The position numbers and the translations under genes are program-made. The notes below the pieces were generated by a model. It did no database searches. It was not told the DNA's origin and was given only the letters and a program-made list of their open reading frames with translations. DNA of 64,000 nt from Muricoccus nepalensis (GTDB taxonomy: Bacteria; Pseudomonadota; Alphaproteobacteria; Acetobacterales; Acetobacteraceae), in contig NZ_RCZP01000002.1 in assembly GCF_006438825.1 (NCBI RefSeq), forward strand, positions 156,568-220,567. Reading direction: 5' to 3'. This document shows positions 5,157-11,260 of this stretch, piece by piece. How positions within the stretch are numbered: the first letter of the stretch is position 1; every line of letters starts with the position of its first letter.

Positions 5157-6110
5157 TCAGGCGCCGCGCGTGTTGACGTAGACGGAATAGAGCGAGCGCG
5201 CGCCGGTGATGAACAGGCGGTTCCGGTGCGCGCCGCCGAAGCAGAGATTGGCCGCGCGCTCCGGCAGGTCGATGTGGCCGATCGGGGCGCCCGCGCTGTT
5301 GAACACGCGCACGCCGTCCTGCTCCGCCGTGCCCATGCCCCAGCCGCACCAGAGGTTGCCGTCCTCGTCCAGGCGGAAGCCGTCCGGCGTGCCGCCGGGC
5401 TCGGCCACGATGAAGTCGCGGCGGCCGGAGAGGCGGGCGCCGTCCACGGCGAAGGAGAGGATCTTGCGCGGGTTGGTGCGGCTCTCGACGACGTAGAGGA
5501 GGGACTCGTCGGGGCTGAAGGCGAGGCCGTTCGGGCCCTCGATGCCCTCGGCCACCACCTCCAGCGTGCCGCGCGCGGGATCGCAGCGGTAGACGTTCTG
5601 GGGAAGCTCGGGCTCGGCGCGCTCGCCCTCGTTGTCGGAGAGGATGCCGAAGGGCGGGTCGGTGAACCAGACCGTGCCGTCGGACTTCACGACGACGTCG
5701 TTCGGCGAGTTGAGGCGCTTGCCCTCGAAGCGGTCGGCCAGGACGGTGATGCGGCCGTCGTGCTCCGTGCGCGTCACGCGCCGCGTCAAGTGCTCGCAGG
5801 TGACCAACCGCCCCTCGCGGTCGCGCGTGTTGCCGTTGGCGAAGTTCGACGGCGCGCGGAAGGTGGTCGTGGCGCCGGTCGCCTCGTCCCAGCGGAGCAT
5901 GCGGTCGCCGGGCACGTCGGACCAGAGGAGGCAGCGGTGGTCGCCGAACCAGACGGGGCCCTCGCCCCAGCGCGTGCCGCCCGCCAGCTTCGCGACGGGC
6001 GCGTTCATCAGGCGGTAGCGGGCGAAGGAGGGATCGAGGTCGCGCAGGCGCGGGTCGGGATAGCGGGCCGAGGGAACCCAGGGGGCCTCGTTGTCGAAGG
6101 GGCGTTCCAT
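5157..6110 (-). CDS. SMP-30/gluconolactonase/LRE family protein
   Basis: A 317-residue six-bladed beta-propeller of the SMP-30/gluconolactonase family; members hydrolyse sugar lactones with a bound divalent metal. Visible family features are GTRWGEGPVWFGD with the metal-ligand Glu at residue 50, NSPNDVVVKSDGTVWFTDPP, EGPNGLAFSPDESLLYVVES and the late DGFRLDEDGNLWCGWG carrying a metal-ligand Asp. There is no signal peptide, so it is cytosolic. It is monocistronic, convergent with the 93-residue gene and divergent from the small membrane peptide. The substrate is unknown, but the sugar-oxidation operon starting 1 kb away would make a lactone that such an enzyme could open. Confidence 0.9.
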   Translation of the reverse strand: MERPFDNEAPWVPSARYPDPRLRDLDPSFARYRLMNAPVAKLAGGTRWGEGPVWFGDHRCLLWSDVPGDRMLRWDEATGATTTFRAPSNFANGNTRDREGRLVTCEHLTRRVTRTEHDGRITVLADRFEGKRLNSPNDVVVKSDGTVWFTDPPFGILSDNEGERAEPELPQNVYRCDPARGTLEVVAEGIEGPNGLAFSPDESLLYVVESRTNPRKILSFAVDGARLSGRRDFIVAEPGGTPDGFRLDEDGNLWCGWGMGTAEQDGVRVFNSAGAPIGHIDLPERAANLCFGGAHRNRLFITGARSLYSVYVNTRGA

Positions 6111-6191: not shown

Positions 6192-6272
6192 ATGCGCGGC
6201 ATCCTGCTCTGGCTCATCGGGATTCCCATTCCCGTCATCCTGCTGCTCTGGCTCTTCGGCGTCCTGCACTAG
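6192..6272 (+). CDS. 26-residue single-span membrane peptide
   Basis: A very short gene that a default length cut-off would miss. The peptide is MRGILLWLIGIPIPVILL followed by LWLFGVLH: a single hydrophobic helix with a central double proline and one N-terminal arginine. A strong AAGGGAGAAA ribosome site stands about six bases upstream of the ATG, and the peptide ends cleanly at TAG. Short peptides with the pattern LWLxGIPIPxILLLxLF recur in alphaproteobacteria as far as I recall, without known function. It lies in the gap between the divergent lactonase gene and the tetR gene, behind an EcfG-like promoter. Confidence 0.6.
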   Translation: MRGILLWLIGIPIPVILLLWLFGVLH

Positions 6273-6346
6273 GGCACGGCCTCCCGCGGGCGGGCCACTC
6301 AACGGCGCTCTCGCCTCCGCGCCGCATCGCGGACAGGATGCGGCGC

Positions 6347-6988
6347 ATGGACGCCCCCGCCCGCACCATCCCGCAGAGCCCGCGCGCCGAGGCGACGCGC
6401 CGCCGGATCCTCGACGCCGCGCTCGAGGAATTCGCCGCCCGCGGCCTGGCCGGCGCCCGGGTGGACGACATCGCCGCCCGCGCCGGCGCCAACAAGCGCA
6501 TGCTCTACGCCTATTTCGGCAACAAGGAGGACCTCTGGGTCGCCGTGCTCGAGGCGGCCTACGCGCACAAGCGCGAGGAGGAACGGGCGCTGCGGGTGGA
6601 CGATCTGCCGCCCGCCGAGGCCATGGCGAAGCTGGTGCGCTTCAACCTTCGCTACACCGCGCGCCACCCCGAGTTCGTCGCCCTGCTGAACCAGGAGAAC
6701 CTGCACCGCGCGGCCTATCTCGGGCGAAGCGAGCGGGTGCCGGCCCTCTACTTCCCGCTGTTGGACACGCTGCGCGCCGTGCTGCGCCGCGGCGTGGCGG
6801 AGGGGGTGTTCCGGGGCGGCGTGGACCCGATGCAGGCCTATGTGACGATCGTGGCGCTGGGTCATTTCTACGTGTCCAACCTGCACACGCTCTCGGCCAT
6901 CTTCGGCACCGGCCTCGGCTCCGAGGCCGCGATCGAGGCGCGGGAGGCGCACTCGGTGGAGGTGGTGCTGGGCTGGCTCCGGCCTTGA
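6347..6988 (+). CDS. TetR/AcrR family transcriptional regulator
   Basis: A 213-residue TetR-type repressor. The N-terminal helix-turn-helix domain (about residues 10-60) reads RRRILDAALEEFAARGLAG, then VDDIAARAGANKRMLYAYFG and NKEDLWVAVLEAAY, all typical. The C-terminal ligand domain is of the type with FNLRYTARHPEFVALLNQEN and a late AYVTIVALGHFYVSN. I start at the second ATG (6347) because GGACAGG lies nine bases upstream; the ATG at 6338 adds three residues but has no ribosome site. It directly precedes a three-gene catabolic operon, with a palindromic operator in the 65-base gap, so it very probably represses that operon. The inducer is unknown. Confidence 0.92.
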   Translation: MDAPARTIPQSPRAEATRRRILDAALEEFAARGLAGARVDDIAARAGANKRMLYAYFGNKEDLWVAVLEAAYAHKREEERALRVDDLPPAEAMAKLVRFNLRYTARHPEFVALLNQENLHRAAYLGRSERVPALYFPLLDTLRAVLRRGVAEGVFRGGVDPMQAYVTIVALGHFYVSNLHTLSAIFGTGLGSEAAIEAREAHSVEVVLGWLRP

Positions 6989-7007
6989 CGCAGGCCTCTC
7001 GCCGGCC

Positions 7008-7031
7008 TTAGGTAACCGCACGGTTACTTAA
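7008..7031. promoter_or_regulatory. palindromic operator of the upstream TetR regulator
   Basis: The core is GTAACCG (7012-7018), two central bases CA, CGGTTAC (7021-7027): perfect seven-base arms. After one mismatched pair, three further bases on each side also match (TTA at 7008-7010, TAA at 7029-7031). This size and style fit a TetR-family dimer site. A -35-like TTGACG (6985-6990) overlaps the tetR stop 17 bases before the palindrome, so a bound repressor would cover the -10 region of the operon promoter. Confidence 0.75.
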
Positions 7032-7053
7032 GAAGTGCGGGGAGGAAGCGCGA

Positions 7054-8208
7054 ATGGCGCAGCGGCGTATCGGCCTGGTCATGCACGGCGTGACGGGGCG
7101 CATGGGCATGAACCAGCACCTCATCCGCTCCATCGCGGTCATCCGCAAGGACGGCGGCGTCCGCCTGCCCAGCGGCGACCGCCTGATGCCGGACCCCATC
7201 ATCGTCGGCCGCAACCGGGAGAAGCTGGAGGCGCTGGCCCGCGCGCACGGCATCGACCGCGTGGGCACGGACCTCGACGCCGCGCTCGCCAACCCCGACG
7301 ACACGATCTTCTTCGACGCGGCCACCACGCAGATGCGCGCCGAGCTGATCCGGCGCGCGATCGGCGCGGGCAAGCACATCTATTGCGAGAAGCCGACGGC
7401 CGATAACCTCGCGGACGCGCTGGACCTCGTGCGCGTGGCGAAGGCGGCCGGCATCAAGCACGGCGTGGTGCAGGACAAACTCTTCCTGCCGGGCCTGCGC
7501 AAGATGAAGATGGTGATCGACAGCGGCTTCCTCGGCCGGATCCTCTCGGTGCGCGGCGAGTTCGGCTACTGGGTCTTCGAGGGCGACCTGCAGCCGACGC
7601 AGCGCCCGAGCTGGAACTACAAGAAGAACGAGGGCGGCGGCATCATCCTCGACATGCTCTGCCACTGGCGCTACGTGCTCGACAACACCTTCGGCGCCAC
7701 GAAGGCCGTCTCCTGCCTGGGCGCGACGCATATTCCCGTCCGCTACGACGAGAGCGGCAAGCCCTACGACGCCGACACGGACGACGCCGCCTACGCCACC
7801 TTCCAGCTCGAGGGCGGGATCGTCGCGCAGATCAACTCCTCCTGGACCACGCGCGTGCGGCGGGACGACCTCGTCACCTTCCACGTCGACGGCACGCACG
7901 GCTCGGCGGTCTGCGGGTTGACGGATTGCTGGACGCAGGCGCGGGTGAGCACCCCCAAGCCCGTCTGGAACCCCGACGAGCCGCAGACGATCGACTTCTT
8001 CGAGGGATGGGGGAAGGTGCCGGACACCCAGCCCTACCCGAACGGCTTCCGCGTGCAGTGGGAGGAGTTCCTGAAGCACGTTGCCGGCGAGCGCGCGGAC
8101 TATCCCTGGGACCTCATGGCCGGCGCCAAGGGCGTGCAGCTCGCCGAGGCCGGGCTGCGGTCCTGGGCGGAGCGCCGCTGGATCGACCTGCCCGCGCTGG
8201 AGGCGTGA
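7054..8208 (+). CDS. Gfo/Idh/MocA family oxidoreductase
   Basis: A 384-residue NAD(P)-dependent dehydrogenase of the Gfo/Idh/MocA family, which oxidises sugars or sugar derivatives. The N-terminal Rossmann segment is IGLVMHGVTGRMGMNQHL, with an insertion before PIIVGRNREKLEALA. The signature AGKHIYCEKPTADN places the EKP motif at residues 112-114. The catalytic part includes GGGIILDMLCHWRYVLDN, where the Asp/His pair is expected. ATG 7054 follows GGAGGAAG. It is first in an operon: the next gene begins two bases after its stop. It probably oxidises a hydroxyl of a sugar acid or glycoside to a keto group; this is inference from the family. Confidence 0.92.
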   Translation: MAQRRIGLVMHGVTGRMGMNQHLIRSIAVIRKDGGVRLPSGDRLMPDPIIVGRNREKLEALARAHGIDRVGTDLDAALANPDDTIFFDAATTQMRAELIRRAIGAGKHIYCEKPTADNLADALDLVRVAKAAGIKHGVVQDKLFLPGLRKMKMVIDSGFLGRILSVRGEFGYWVFEGDLQPTQRPSWNYKKNEGGGIILDMLCHWRYVLDNTFGATKAVSCLGATHIPVRYDESGKPYDADTDDAAYATFQLEGGIVAQINSSWTTRVRRDDLVTFHVDGTHGSAVCGLTDCWTQARVSTPKPVWNPDEPQTIDFFEGWGKVPDTQPYPNGFRVQWEEFLKHVAGERADYPWDLMAGAKGVQLAEAGLRSWAERRWIDLPALEA

Positions 8209-8209
8209 C

Positions 8210-9370
8210 ATGGCCACCCTGACCCTGCCCACCGCCGCCGGCGCGCTGGAGGCCTACACCACCGGCGCGCCCGGGGATTTCGCGGTGGCGAAGCCGCCCT
8301 ACCCGCGTGTGGCCTACGCGGCCGCGCACGTCGTCGCCGACCCGCTGGCCGAGCAGGACCCCTGGCTGGACGCCAAGGTCGACTGGGACCGCACCATCGC
8401 CTTCCGCCGGCACCTCTGGTCGCTCGGCCTCGGCGTCGCGGAGGCGATGGACACGGCGCAGCGCGGCATGGGGCTCGACTGGGCGGGCGCGCAGGAGCTC
8501 ATCCGCCGCTCCCTCGACGCCGCGAAGGACTATCCGGAGGCGGTGATCGCGAGCGGCGCCGGGACGGACCACCTGGCGCCCGGCCCGGACGTGACGGTGG
8601 ACGACGTCATCCGCGCCTACGAGGAGCAGTGCGCGGCGGTGGAGGGCATGGGCGGGCGCATCATCCTCATGGCGTCCCGCGCGCTGGCGAAGGCGGCGCG
8701 GTCGCCGGAGGACTACGTGCGCGTCTACGACCGCGTGCTCTCCTCGGTGCGCCAGCCCGTCATCATCCACTGGCTCGGCGAGATGTTCGACCCGGCGCTG
8801 GAGGGCTACTGGGGGCACCACGACCACATGGCGGCCATGGAGGTGGCGCTCGAGGTCATCGCCGCCCACGCGGACAAGGTGGACGGCGTGAAGATCTCGC
8901 TGCTGGACGACCGGAAGGAGGTGTCCATGCGCCGGCGCCTTCCGAAGGGCGTGCGCATGTACACGGGGGACGACTTCAACTACGCGGAGCTGATTGCGGG
9001 CGATGCCGAGGGGCATTCGGACGCGCTGCTCGGCATCTTCGACCCCATCGCACCGGCCGTCGGCGGTGCGCTGGCCGCGCTGTCGCGGAACGACATCTCG
9101 ACCTTCCACGGCATCCTGGCGCCGACGGTCCCGCTGTCCCGCCACATCTTCAAGGCGCCGACCCGCTTCTACAAGACGGGCGTGGTGTTCATGGCCTGGC
9201 TGAACGGGCACCAGGACCACTTCGTCATGGTCGGCGGGCAGCAGTCCACGCGCTCCATCGGGCACTTCGCCGAGCTGTTCCGCCTCGCCGACAAGGCGGG
9301 GCTGCTGTCGGACTCCGAGCGTGCGGCGGCGCGGATGCGGACGCTGCTCGCGCTGCACGGGGTGGCGTGA
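8210..9370 (+). CDS. DUF993 / dihydrodipicolinate synthase-like family protein
   Basis: A 386-residue protein matching the DUF993 family, a distant branch of DapA-type TIM-barrel aldolases. Segments recognised are KPPYPRVAYAAAHVVADPLA near the N terminus, EAVIASGAGTDHLAPGPDVT, VIIHWLGEMFDPALEGYWGH and HADKVDGVKISLLDD. The lysine in that last segment (Lys228) stands where a Schiff-base lysine would be expected. It begins two bases after the dehydrogenase stop, and its own stop overlaps the next start (TGATG), so the three proteins should be made together. A likely role is retro-aldol cleavage of the oxidised sugar made by its neighbour; no member's reaction is known to me. Confidence 0.85.
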   Translation: MATLTLPTAAGALEAYTTGAPGDFAVAKPPYPRVAYAAAHVVADPLAEQDPWLDAKVDWDRTIAFRRHLWSLGLGVAEAMDTAQRGMGLDWAGAQELIRRSLDAAKDYPEAVIASGAGTDHLAPGPDVTVDDVIRAYEEQCAAVEGMGGRIILMASRALAKAARSPEDYVRVYDRVLSSVRQPVIIHWLGEMFDPALEGYWGHHDHMAAMEVALEVIAAHADKVDGVKISLLDDRKEVSMRRRLPKGVRMYTGDDFNYAELIAGDAEGHSDALLGIFDPIAPAVGGALAALSRNDISTFHGILAPTVPLSRHIFKAPTRFYKTGVVFMAWLNGHQDHFVMVGGQQSTRSIGHFAELFRLADKAGLLSDSERAAARMRTLLALHGVA

Positions 9371-10200
9371 TGGAGGCGCCGCGCTCCCCGCCGGGGCCGC
9401 TCTCCCTCAACACCGTCACGGTGAAGGAGCGCTGGGGCCTTGCGGACTGCATCGAGGGCTGCGCGCGCCACGGCATCCCCGGCATCTCCCCCTGGCGCGA
9501 CGTGCTGCAGGCCATGGGGGTGGAGCGGGCCGCGCGCGCCATCCGCGACGCCGGGCTCTCGGTCTCCGGCCTCTGCCGCGGCGGGATGTTCCCGGCGTCG
9601 GACGCGGCGGGTCGGGCGGCCGCGATCGAGGACAACCGCCGCGCCATCGCCGAGGCCCAGGCCATCGGCGCCCCCTGCCTGGTCATGGTCTGCGGCGGGC
9701 TGCCGCCGGGGTCGAAGGACATCGACGGCGCCCGCGCGATGGTGCGCGACGGGCTGCACGCCATCATGGACGAGGCCCGCGCGGCCGGCGTGACCGTCGC
9801 GCTGGAGCCGCTGCACCCCATGACCTGCGCCGACCGCAGCGTGCTGTCCACGCTTGCCCAGGCGCTGGACCTCTGCGACGAACTCGGCGCGGGCAGCGGC
9901 GTCGCGCTCGACGTCTACCATGTCTGGTGGGACCCGGCGCTGCGCGCGCAGGTCGCGCGGGCGGGCTCGCGCGTCGCGGCCTTCCATGTCTGCGACTGGC
10001 TGGTGCCGACGACGGACACGGTCTTCGACCGCGGCCTGCCGGGGGAGGGGGTGATCGACATCCCCGGCATCCGCGCCCTGGTCGAGGCCGGCGGCTACCG
10101 CGGGCACACGGAGGTCGAGATCCTCTCGCGCCGCTGGTGGGCGGCCGACCCCGACGAGGTGCTTCGCGAGATGAAGCGGCGGCACGGCACCGCCTGCTAG
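9370..10200 (+). CDS. sugar phosphate isomerase/epimerase family TIM-barrel protein
   Basis: A 276-residue xylose-isomerase-like TIM barrel (AP endonuclease 2 superfamily). Metal-binding positions are visible in VTVALEPLHPM (Glu), ALDVYHVWWDP (Asp, His), VAAFHVCDWL (His) and the late GHTEVEILSRRWW (Glu). Proteins of this fold isomerise or epimerise sugars, and some beta-eliminate 3-keto-glycosides. The start ATG overlaps the stop of the DUF993 gene by one base, making it the third coupled gene. The partnership with a Gfo/Idh/MocA dehydrogenase is a recurrent feature of keto-sugar pathways. The exact reaction is open. Confidence 0.88.
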   Translation: MEAPRSPPGPLSLNTVTVKERWGLADCIEGCARHGIPGISPWRDVLQAMGVERAARAIRDAGLSVSGLCRGGMFPASDAAGRAAAIEDNRRAIAEAQAIGAPCLVMVCGGLPPGSKDIDGARAMVRDGLHAIMDEARAAGVTVALEPLHPMTCADRSVLSTLAQALDLCDELGAGSGVALDVYHVWWDPALRAQVARAGSRVAAFHVCDWLVPTTDTVFDRGLPGEGVIDIPGIRALVEAGGYRGHTEVEILSRRWWAADPDEVLREMKRRHGTAC

Positions 10201-10234: not shown

Positions 10235-11260
10235 ATGAGCACCCCCCGCCGCGCCCTCTTCGGCGCCGCCGCCGGCCTCGTCGCGTTGCCGGCCTGGGCC
10301 CAGGCGCAAGCCCCGACCCCGACCCCGACCCCGGCCCCCGCTTTGGGCGCGGCCGAGGCGTGGACGCCCAGCCGCCCCATCCGCTTCGTCGTGCCCTTCG
10401 CCGCCGGGGGCGCGACCGACGTCGTCGCGCGCGTGCTCGCGGACCGGATGGGCGAGAGGCTGGGCCAGCCCGTGGTCGTGGAGAACCGCGCGGGATCGGG
10501 CGGCAACATTGGCGTCGAGAACGCCGTCCGCGCCCCCGCCGACGGCACCGTGATCCTCATGGGCACCACGGGCACGCTGACGATCAACCAGCACCTCTAC
10601 GCCAACATGGGCTTCGACCCCGTGCGCGACCTAGCGCCGGTCTCGATGGCCTTCGCGACCGACCACGTGCTGATCGTGAACCCGGCGCACCCCGCCCGCA
10701 CCGTGCAGGAATTCGTCGCCTGGCTGCGCGCGAATCCGGGCAAGGCGAGCTTCGGCTCGGCGGGCTCGGGCTCCTCCACGCACATGGTGGCCGAGCTGTT
10801 CCGGGCGGCGGCGAAGGTGGAGGTCACGCATGTTCCCTACCGCGGCAGCGCGCCCGCGCTGAACGACACGGTCGCGGGCAACGTGCAGTTCATGCTCGAC
10901 CAGCTTCCCTCCGCCATCGGGCAGATCCAGGGCGGGCGCGTGCGGGCGCTGGCGACGACGGGGCCGAAGCGCACCTCCCAGTTGCCGGACGTGCCGACCA
11001 TGGCCGAGAGCGGCCTGCCCGACGCGGAGGCGACCTCCTGGGGCGCGGTCATGGCGCCGCACGGCACGCCCGCCCCGGTGATCGCGCGGCTGAACGCGGT
11101 GCTGCGCGAGGCGCTGGCCGACCCGGCGATCCAGGCGCGCCTGGTGGCGGCCGGGGCCGACGCGGTCTCCTCCACCCCCGCGGAGCTGTCCCAGAAGATG
11201 ACGCAGGAGGCCGCGACCTGGGGGCGCGTGGTGCGGGAGGCCCGGATCACGGTGAACTGA
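10235..11260 (+). CDS. Bug/TctC-family tripartite tricarboxylate transporter substrate-binding protein
   Basis: A 341-residue secreted receptor, the second Bug-family protein in the window. The signal region STPRRALFGAAAGLVALP carries a twin-arginine pair and is followed by a short threonine-proline linker (PTPTPTPAPA), encoded by a CCGACC-type simple repeat, between the export signal and the mature domain. Family motifs are RPIRFVVPFAAGGATDVVAR, QPVVVENRAGSGGNIG, VTHVPYRGSAPALNDTVAG and WGAVMAPHGTPAPVIARLN. It lies 34 bases after the sugar-isomerase gene, in the same direction and behind the TetR operator, so it may supply the substrate of that operon. No membrane subunits are present. Confidence 0.92.
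   Translation: MSTPRRALFGAAAGLVALPAWAQAQAPTPTPTPAPALGAAEAWTPSRPIRFVVPFAAGGATDVVARVLADRMGERLGQPVVVENRAGSGGNIGVENAVRAPADGTVILMGTTGTLTINQHLYANMGFDPVRDLAPVSMAFATDHVLIVNPAHPARTVQEFVAWLRANPGKASFGSAGSGSSTHMVAELFRAAAKVEVTHVPYRGSAPALNDTVAGNVQFMLDQLPSAIGQIQGGRVRALATTGPKRTSQLPDVPTMAESGLPDAEATSWGAVMAPHGTPAPVIARLNAVLREALADPAIQARLVAAGADAVSSTPAELSQKMTQEAATWGRVVREARITVN

Follow-up and report, generated by a model that had tools for sequence, protein, structure and literature searches.

What chemistry does a DUF993 protein perform, and why does its gene stand between those of a dehydrogenase and a sugar-isomerase-like protein? The question is raised by an operon of Muricoccus nepalensis in the window, the whole 64,000-nucleotide stretch of DNA analyzed (contig NZ_RCZP01000002.1, positions 156,568 to 220,567 of the forward strand). 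Behind a gene for a TetR-family regulator, the operon encodes a Gfo/Idh/MocA dehydrogenase (GFO), a DUF993 protein and a xylose-isomerase-like barrel protein (ISO). The presence of a dedicated, conserved catabolic-type operon is supported. That it is a TetR-repressed catabolic unit, in which GFO would oxidize a substrate, ISO isomerize it or eliminate a group and DUF993 cleave the result through a Schiff base, has a probability of about one half. The DUF993 operon is widely conserved and its function undescribed in the open-licence literature searched; the initial annotation, which knew of no reaction for DUF993, agrees with that literature, where no description of the family's function was found and no paper mentions DUF993 by name.

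DUF993 and its exchangeable partners

Partnership was assessed in an even draw of 398 Pseudomonadota genomes, with cut-offs (E <= 1e-100 for GFO, E <= 1e-50 for ISO) set to catch the two subfamilies and leaving remoter homologues uncounted. DUF993 occurs in 36 of these genomes, the window's own included, the GFO subfamily in 19 and the ISO subfamily in 20; all 19 and all 20 fall among the 36. Every GFO match lies no more than 184 bases from a DUF993 match. The operon of the draft genome G164 is spread over two contigs, with GFO next to one DUF993 fragment and ISO next to the other. The initial annotation had read the set as a dedicated catabolic-type unit and tied DUF993 to dehydrogenase and isomerase genes. 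The unit is indeed conserved, and the tie holds in one direction, as the GFO and ISO subfamilies occur in the sampled genomes only beside DUF993. It fails in the other: DUF993 is not confined to loci with both partners, which make up 17 of the 35 described below. Among the genomes listed, DUF993 is found in all 15 of the window's genus and in 2 of 21 from the rest of its family; the closest proteins are those of Roseomonas sp. HF4 (86% identical) and Neoroseomonas marina (85%). Some actinobacteria also carry DUF993.

The partners were compared by a marker-protein search of one DUF993 locus from each of 35 other genomes, extending 8 kb to each side (less at contig ends), G164 being represented by a complete copy on contig C9 and not by its split operon. 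GFO and ISO occur together in 17 loci, and one locus combines a short-chain dehydrogenase/reductase (SDR) with ISO. Seven have an SDR without a detected ISO, and in one of them (L191) the contig stops shortly after DUF993. A further eight have CoA-transferase and crotonase genes that point away from DUF993, with ISO undetected, and the remaining two have none of GFO, ISO, SDR or CoA-transferase/crotonase. A tree of 133 DUF993 proteins, built by a quick method, includes 80 searched loci that were chosen for closeness to the window's protein, and therefore informs on branching and not on proportions. Two clades have full support, one uniting nine of the 10 loci labeled for CoA-transferase and the other six of the seven SDR loci without ISO; none of 200 label shuffles clustered as well. 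The oxidoreductase partner of DUF993 is exchangeable by clade, being GFO, SDR, or CoA-transferase/crotonase genes. Because this partner changes and DUF993 is constant, DUF993 would be the step that oxidation prepares, and the three-gene set may be one version of a broader oxidize-then-cleave theme.

For six loci in the tree, none of the four marker partners turned up within the distances allowed (L048, L109, L117, L122, L187 and L188); of these, L109 and L117 lie near contig ends. At L048, on a Streptomyces plasmid, a divergent DUF993 gene (8917-10104) has a type I polyketide synthase gene as its neighbor, a hint of a role in biosynthesis. Two loci branch at odds with their labels: L131, labeled Frankia, falls inside Bradyrhizobium and L135, labeled Klebsiella, among betaproteobacterial metagenome-assembled genomes, so that labels or bins look wrong. 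In Chimaeribacter arupi (L056, 9001-10102) the DUF993 match falls into two pieces that lie in different frames, with no annotated gene, and looks broken.

A barrel with a candidate Schiff-base lysine

The DUF993 protein has a single Pfam match at E <= 0.001, to PF06187 (E 1.1e-185, residues 4-385); at the same threshold neither PF00701 nor any NCBIfam model matches it. Among solved structures it matches 4dnh, which is SMc04132 of Sinorhizobium meliloti (E 5e-176), with 69% identity in the model match over the whole length. An AlphaFold2 model from 20 sequences (mean pLDDT, a confidence score, of 82) matches 4dnh with Z 50.6; the next matches are many chains of dihydrodipicolinate synthase (DHDPS), with Z of about 27, root-mean-square deviations of 2.5-2.7 and 282-288 residues aligned. 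The strands of the modeled barrel comprise residues 34-38, 75-78, 113-117, 150-153, 184-188, 224-229, 249-252 and 272-277, and a loop at 194-202 has pLDDT below 50, which makes it unsuitable for close reading.

DUF993 resembles the family of DHDPS and N-acetylneuraminate lyase (NAL) in its eight-stranded barrel, a lysine on strand 6 and a GD motif on strand 7. The sections available of one description give a Schiff-base Lys, a highly conserved Tyr and a GXXGE motif as marks of the NAL family (PMC5380162). In the model, Lys228 lies on strand 6 and is aligned, by position only, with the Schiff-base lysine of DHDPS; it is identical in all 135 DUF993 loci, in keeping with the earlier proposal that this candidate lysine sits in the active site of the barrel. 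His187 on strand 5 occupies the place of the conserved catalytic Tyr (Tyr137 in Escherichia coli NAL), and D81-T-A-Q-R85 the place of GXXGE after strand 2. Likewise invariant across the 135 loci are His187, Trp188, Asp194, Tyr200, Glu237, Arg241, Gly253 and Asp254; Asp81, Thr82 and Arg85 are identical wherever they are covered (133 of 133). When 16 diverse DUF993 proteins were compared, profile against profile, with DHDPS-family matches from the same genome (12 of 13, a partial one being omitted), VDGVK228 paired with IVGVK, PVIIH187 with PIIIY, and GTTGE with DTAQR, at E 6e-5 and a probability of 65. The Tyr is seemingly lacking also in three of the 12 aligned DHDPS-family proteins (L147-L149). 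The differences from DHDPS/NAL are the missing PF00701 match, His187 for Tyr, DTAQR for GXXGE, and a length of 386 rather than about 290 residues. Judged from model and alignment, DUF993 is a DHDPS/NAL-type barrel with a lysine at the Schiff-base position of class I aldolases.

GFO is related to 3oqb (E 4.8e-175) and ISO to 3qc0 and 3ju2 (E about 1e-95), the latter being SMc04130, with 7vpf as a further relative. Since solved structures cover all three families, the three proteins are not chance open reading frames (ORFs); the deposited names of 3oqb, 4dnh and 3qc0/3ju2 are generic (oxidoreductase, uncharacterized protein and sugar isomerase). GFO has the Gfo/Idh/MocA family profiles, the EKP motif announced for it (residues 112-114) and the Asp/His active-site motif; EKP, Asp200 and His204 are kept in 99 of 99 covered relatives above 50% identity. 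The expected ligand set of xylose-isomerase-like (AP_endonuc_2) barrels, E146, D181, H206 and E250, is present in ISO along with a PF01261 match (E 1.6e-38). Among ISO relatives above 38% identity, all 105 keep E146 and D181; of the 104 covered at each of the other two positions, 103 keep H206 and all keep E250. The four ISO residues are presumably metal ligands, and the GFO residues are taken to have the roles usual in their family. Both proteins score far below the curated cut-offs of characterized relatives: GFO reaches 67.3 bits against levoglucosan dehydrogenase (NF052479, cut-off 650) and 63.8 bits against inositol 2-dehydrogenase (IolG, TIGR04380, cut-off 355), and ISO 28.1 bits against hydroxypyruvate isomerase (TIGR03234, cut-off 353) and 28.9 bits against 2-oxo-tetronate isomerase (NF043033, cut-off 325).

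SMc04132 provides a DUF993 structure without a function. In a related locus of another S. meliloti strain the order GFO-DUF993 is the same, but an enolase-superfamily gene separates DUF993 from ISO and the locus also encodes a sugar ABC transporter, neither of which is found in the window operon. The portions available of the literature on SMc04128-SMc04139, an expression table and a regulatory network, hold no clue to the substrate.

Operon layout, regulator and neighboring genes

All five genes from the TetR gene to the Bug receptor gene lie on the same strand (Table 1). The three enzyme genes were thought to be joined by a 2-base gap and a TGATG junction. The junction stands, with a one-base overlap (A) at 9370 between DUF993 and ISO; the spacing of GFO and DUF993 is 1 base (TGA at 8206-8208, ATG at 8210). 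Promoter and terminator scans gave nothing useful.

Table 1. Features of the DUF993 operon and its surroundings in the window.
Feature	Position	Strand	Basis and remarks
SMP-30/gluconolactonase-like gene	5157-6110	-	SGL (Pfam); divergent neighbor, weak link
TetR-family regulator gene (TetR_N, TetR_C_29)	6338-6988	+	ORF and Pfam; probable local repressor
Near-perfect palindrome TTAGGTAACCG-CA-CGGTTACTTAA	7008-7031		Between TetR and GFO; probable TetR operator
GFO, Gfo/Idh/MocA dehydrogenase, 384 aa	7054-8208	+	PF01408/PF22725/PF02894; relative of PDB 3oqb
DUF993 protein, 386 aa	8210-9370	+	PF06187; predicted DHDPS/NAL-type barrel with Lys228, His187
ISO, xylose-isomerase-like barrel protein, 276 aa	9370-10200	+	PF01261; relative of PDB 3ju2/3qc0 (SMc04130)
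Bug/TctC solute receptor gene	10235-11260	+	TctC (Pfam); 34 bases behind ISO

The TetR gene and the palindrome reported ahead of the three genes are both in place. The full palindrome reads TTAGGTAACCGCACGGTTACTTAA, with 10 of 11 pairs, around the core GTAACCG-CA-CGGTTAC (7012-7027). This core is unique in the window even when up to 2 mismatches are allowed (shuffles expect 0.03), and among 197 loci the exact core, without outer bases, recurs beyond the window's own copy in L176 only. The palindromic motif TNACY-N4-RGTNA follows TetR, at a distance of up to about 300 bases, in 10 of the 65 related loci where TetR precedes GFO; it is found in 16 of 3250 random windows of the same loci, an enrichment that is partly circular because the motif was defined after palindromes had been seen in some of these loci. 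Nine of the 10 read GTAACY....RGTTAC, like the window, and three (L093, L098, L177) share one sequence, so that they are not ten independent cases. In some betaproteobacterial loci its place is taken by a related palindrome, TTCAC...GTGAA. A TetR homologue is present in 18 of the 35 sampled loci. The position and recurrence of the palindrome behind the TetR gene make it a probable TetR operator.

The Bug receptor gene reported behind the operon is confirmed by its TctC match, and since a TctC gene also lies 3' of ISO in seven close Roseomonas-type loci (L050, L057-L061, L066), it is probably an operon member in this lineage. The lactonase gene noted nearby is present; its tie to the operon is not borne out. 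Of 89 loci, only 4 have an SGL homologue, all of them close relatives (L059, L060, L063, L066), and the lactonase is rejected as a core part. Between the lactonase and TetR genes, 6192-6272 may encode a 26-residue hydrophobic peptide (the end of a longer ORF). The Pfam scan of six window genes revealed no glycerate kinase, CoA or enolase-type gene.

Related loci are richer in neighbors. Transporters vary between TTT (TctABC), an ABC set beside an enolase-type gene, whose NitT/TauT character was judged by eye, and sugar ABC sets. Sugar ABC transporters, LacI or TetR regulators, GMC and aldehyde dehydrogenases, Gfo and tagatose-epimerase-like proteins are among them and together suggest that the substrate is polyhydroxylated. 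Genes for glycerate kinase accompany DUF993 in L049, L052, L054, L055, L153, L158 and L161, and in five of the 35 sampled loci; their recurrence suggests that one fragment may end as glycerate. The oxidative deoxyribonate pathway, which ends in glycerate, is similar in that a 3-keto acid is formed by oxidation, a C-C bond is cleaved and a glycerate kinase takes part; it differs in using a beta-keto acid cleavage enzyme. A gene for such a cleavage enzyme adjoins DUF993 at L188, other loci not having been searched for it: it lies just upstream (6485-7447) and exceeds the cut-off for 3,5-dioxohexanoate:acetyl-CoA acetone transferase.

ORF clustering of 89 loci undercounts some neighbors, which antisense ORFs displaced; the partner counts given above come from other searches. 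An enolase-superfamily protein (MR_MLE_C only, 476 aa; L108, 7356-8786) is clustered in 38 of the 89 loci, beside GFO in many, and has no NCBIfam match and no solved relative at E <= 0.001. It was rejected as a required part, having no match in the window's genome at E <= 0.001, a weak negative as the query lacked a positive control. The D-tagatose-3-epimerase-like protein iso2 was rejected likewise, with only a 36% partial match in that genome. A second long DHDPS-like gene directly precedes GFO in L057 (7749-8828), L058 (7769-8827), L059 (6316-7356), L067 (5651-6727) and L078, and L176 has a match to it in the interval from TetR to GFO. It carries the motifs VAIK and YTGNDD, matches PF00701 in L067 and is clustered in 8 of the 89 loci; in the window's genome the best match is partial and weak, at 32% over 109 residues.

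A possible route and its rivals

The reaction steps that follow are all inferred, and so are the products and whether ISO acts before DUF993. A polyhydroxylated compound of sugar, sugar acid or cyclitol type would be taken up with the help of the Bug receptor, the unit being repressed by TetR. Using NAD(P)+, GFO would turn a secondary alcohol into a ketone, and ISO, with a divalent metal, may shift or epimerize groups near the carbonyl or eliminate an adjacent leaving group. Lys228 of DUF993 would then form a Schiff base with the carbonyl, followed by a retro-aldol C-C break in which His187 stands where Tyr is usual. In relatives with glycerate kinase, one product would probably be at the level of glycerate. 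A wider formulation is put forward tentatively and may well fail: DUF993 could be a distinct Schiff-base lyase branch, with His for the family Tyr and a non-pyruvate carbonyl, that forms the fixed core of undescribed catabolic routes, the oxidizing partner (GFO, SDR or another Gfo) depending on the substrate and the products entering as glycerate and, in some clades, as a CoA ester.

Among the closest known counterparts of the operon is the levoglucosan pathway, whose dehydrogenase is presumably of the Gfo type. In the sections available of its description, levoglucosan is oxidized, after which proteins that bear the annotation of sugar phosphate isomerases carry out an elimination and a hydration, which has been proven (PMC7676230). 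This is a proven precedent for the step order proposed for GFO and ISO, and LgdA, LgdB1, LgdB2 and LgdC resemble the operon in combining a dehydrogenase with proteins so annotated (PMC7676230). The same sections name no DUF993 protein among the four enzymes, and the low levoglucosan dehydrogenase score of GFO also sets the two apart.

Several observations weigh against the route proposed for the operon. ISO went undetected in 17 of the 35 sampled loci and is therefore not obligatory for DUF993. The family Tyr and the GXXGE motif are both absent from DUF993, so pyruvate-type aldol chemistry is not transferable to it. A narrower DUF993 alignment scored weakly against DHDPS (probability 4, E 0.01), the Lys and His/Tyr places pairing identically. 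The glycerate-level product is drawn from other loci, and the six scanned window genes include no glycerate kinase. Finally, the HIBADH-type reductase found in some loci, six of them in cluster c28, falls under every curated NCBIfam cut-off.

The data do not discriminate between C-C and C-O cleavage by DUF993, and it is here that the most serious rival arises. DUF993 might be a Schiff-base dehydratase or hydratase that breaks a C-O bond, cleavage being left to a later enzyme encoded elsewhere. Ketodeoxyglucarate dehydratase does belong to its superfamily, according to the sections available of PMC5380162, and the second DHDPS-like gene of five relatives and L176 could encode the missing aldolase. 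However, this gene is lacking from the window's genome and rare among the clustered loci, and glycerate kinase and CoA-transferase neighbors suit fragment cleavage better, which leaves the dehydratase unlikely. Because of the same neighbors, cleavage into fragments is favored.

It is improbable that DUF993 acts on CoA esters or derived acids in a beta-oxidation-like manner, the GFO version being a derived use. SDR-type loci (L053-L055, L154-L157) do combine acyl-CoA dehydrogenase, electron transfer flavoprotein, CoA-transferase and crotonase in varying ways, and CoA-transferase and crotonase genes adjoin DUF993 in L174, L178 and L181-L186. Around the window operon, however, no CoA gene was seen among the six scanned, and L154 and L157 pair a sugar ABC transporter with acyl-CoA dehydrogenase and have no CoA-transferase in the stretch seen, for which gene tables are incomplete. 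Hardly probable, lastly, is a reading in which DUF993 performs an accessory step and the operon is a variant of inositol catabolism or of a known oxidation-elimination pathway of the levoglucosan type, acting on glycosides or anhydrosugars. The two top characterized-family scores of GFO (67 and 64 bits) point that way, and the ISO superfamily presumably supplies eliminases and inosose enzymes, but those scores are about ten and six times under the cut-offs, and the GFO and ISO subfamilies, which were not seen apart from DUF993 in the 398 genomes, make an accessory role unlikely.

Orphan catabolic operons are common as a kind; the invariant His and the partner exchange lift this one somewhat above the usual. 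DUF993 has had a crystal structure since 2012 and no function has been found for it. If the proposed cleavage is true, a whole family of known fold gains a chemistry, and enzymologists would take an interest in a class I aldolase fold that has exchanged its Tyr for His. Rhizobia, Bradyrhizobium, Roseomonas, Variovorax and some Rhodobacterales would then have a catabolic capacity, so far unread, that is open to testing.

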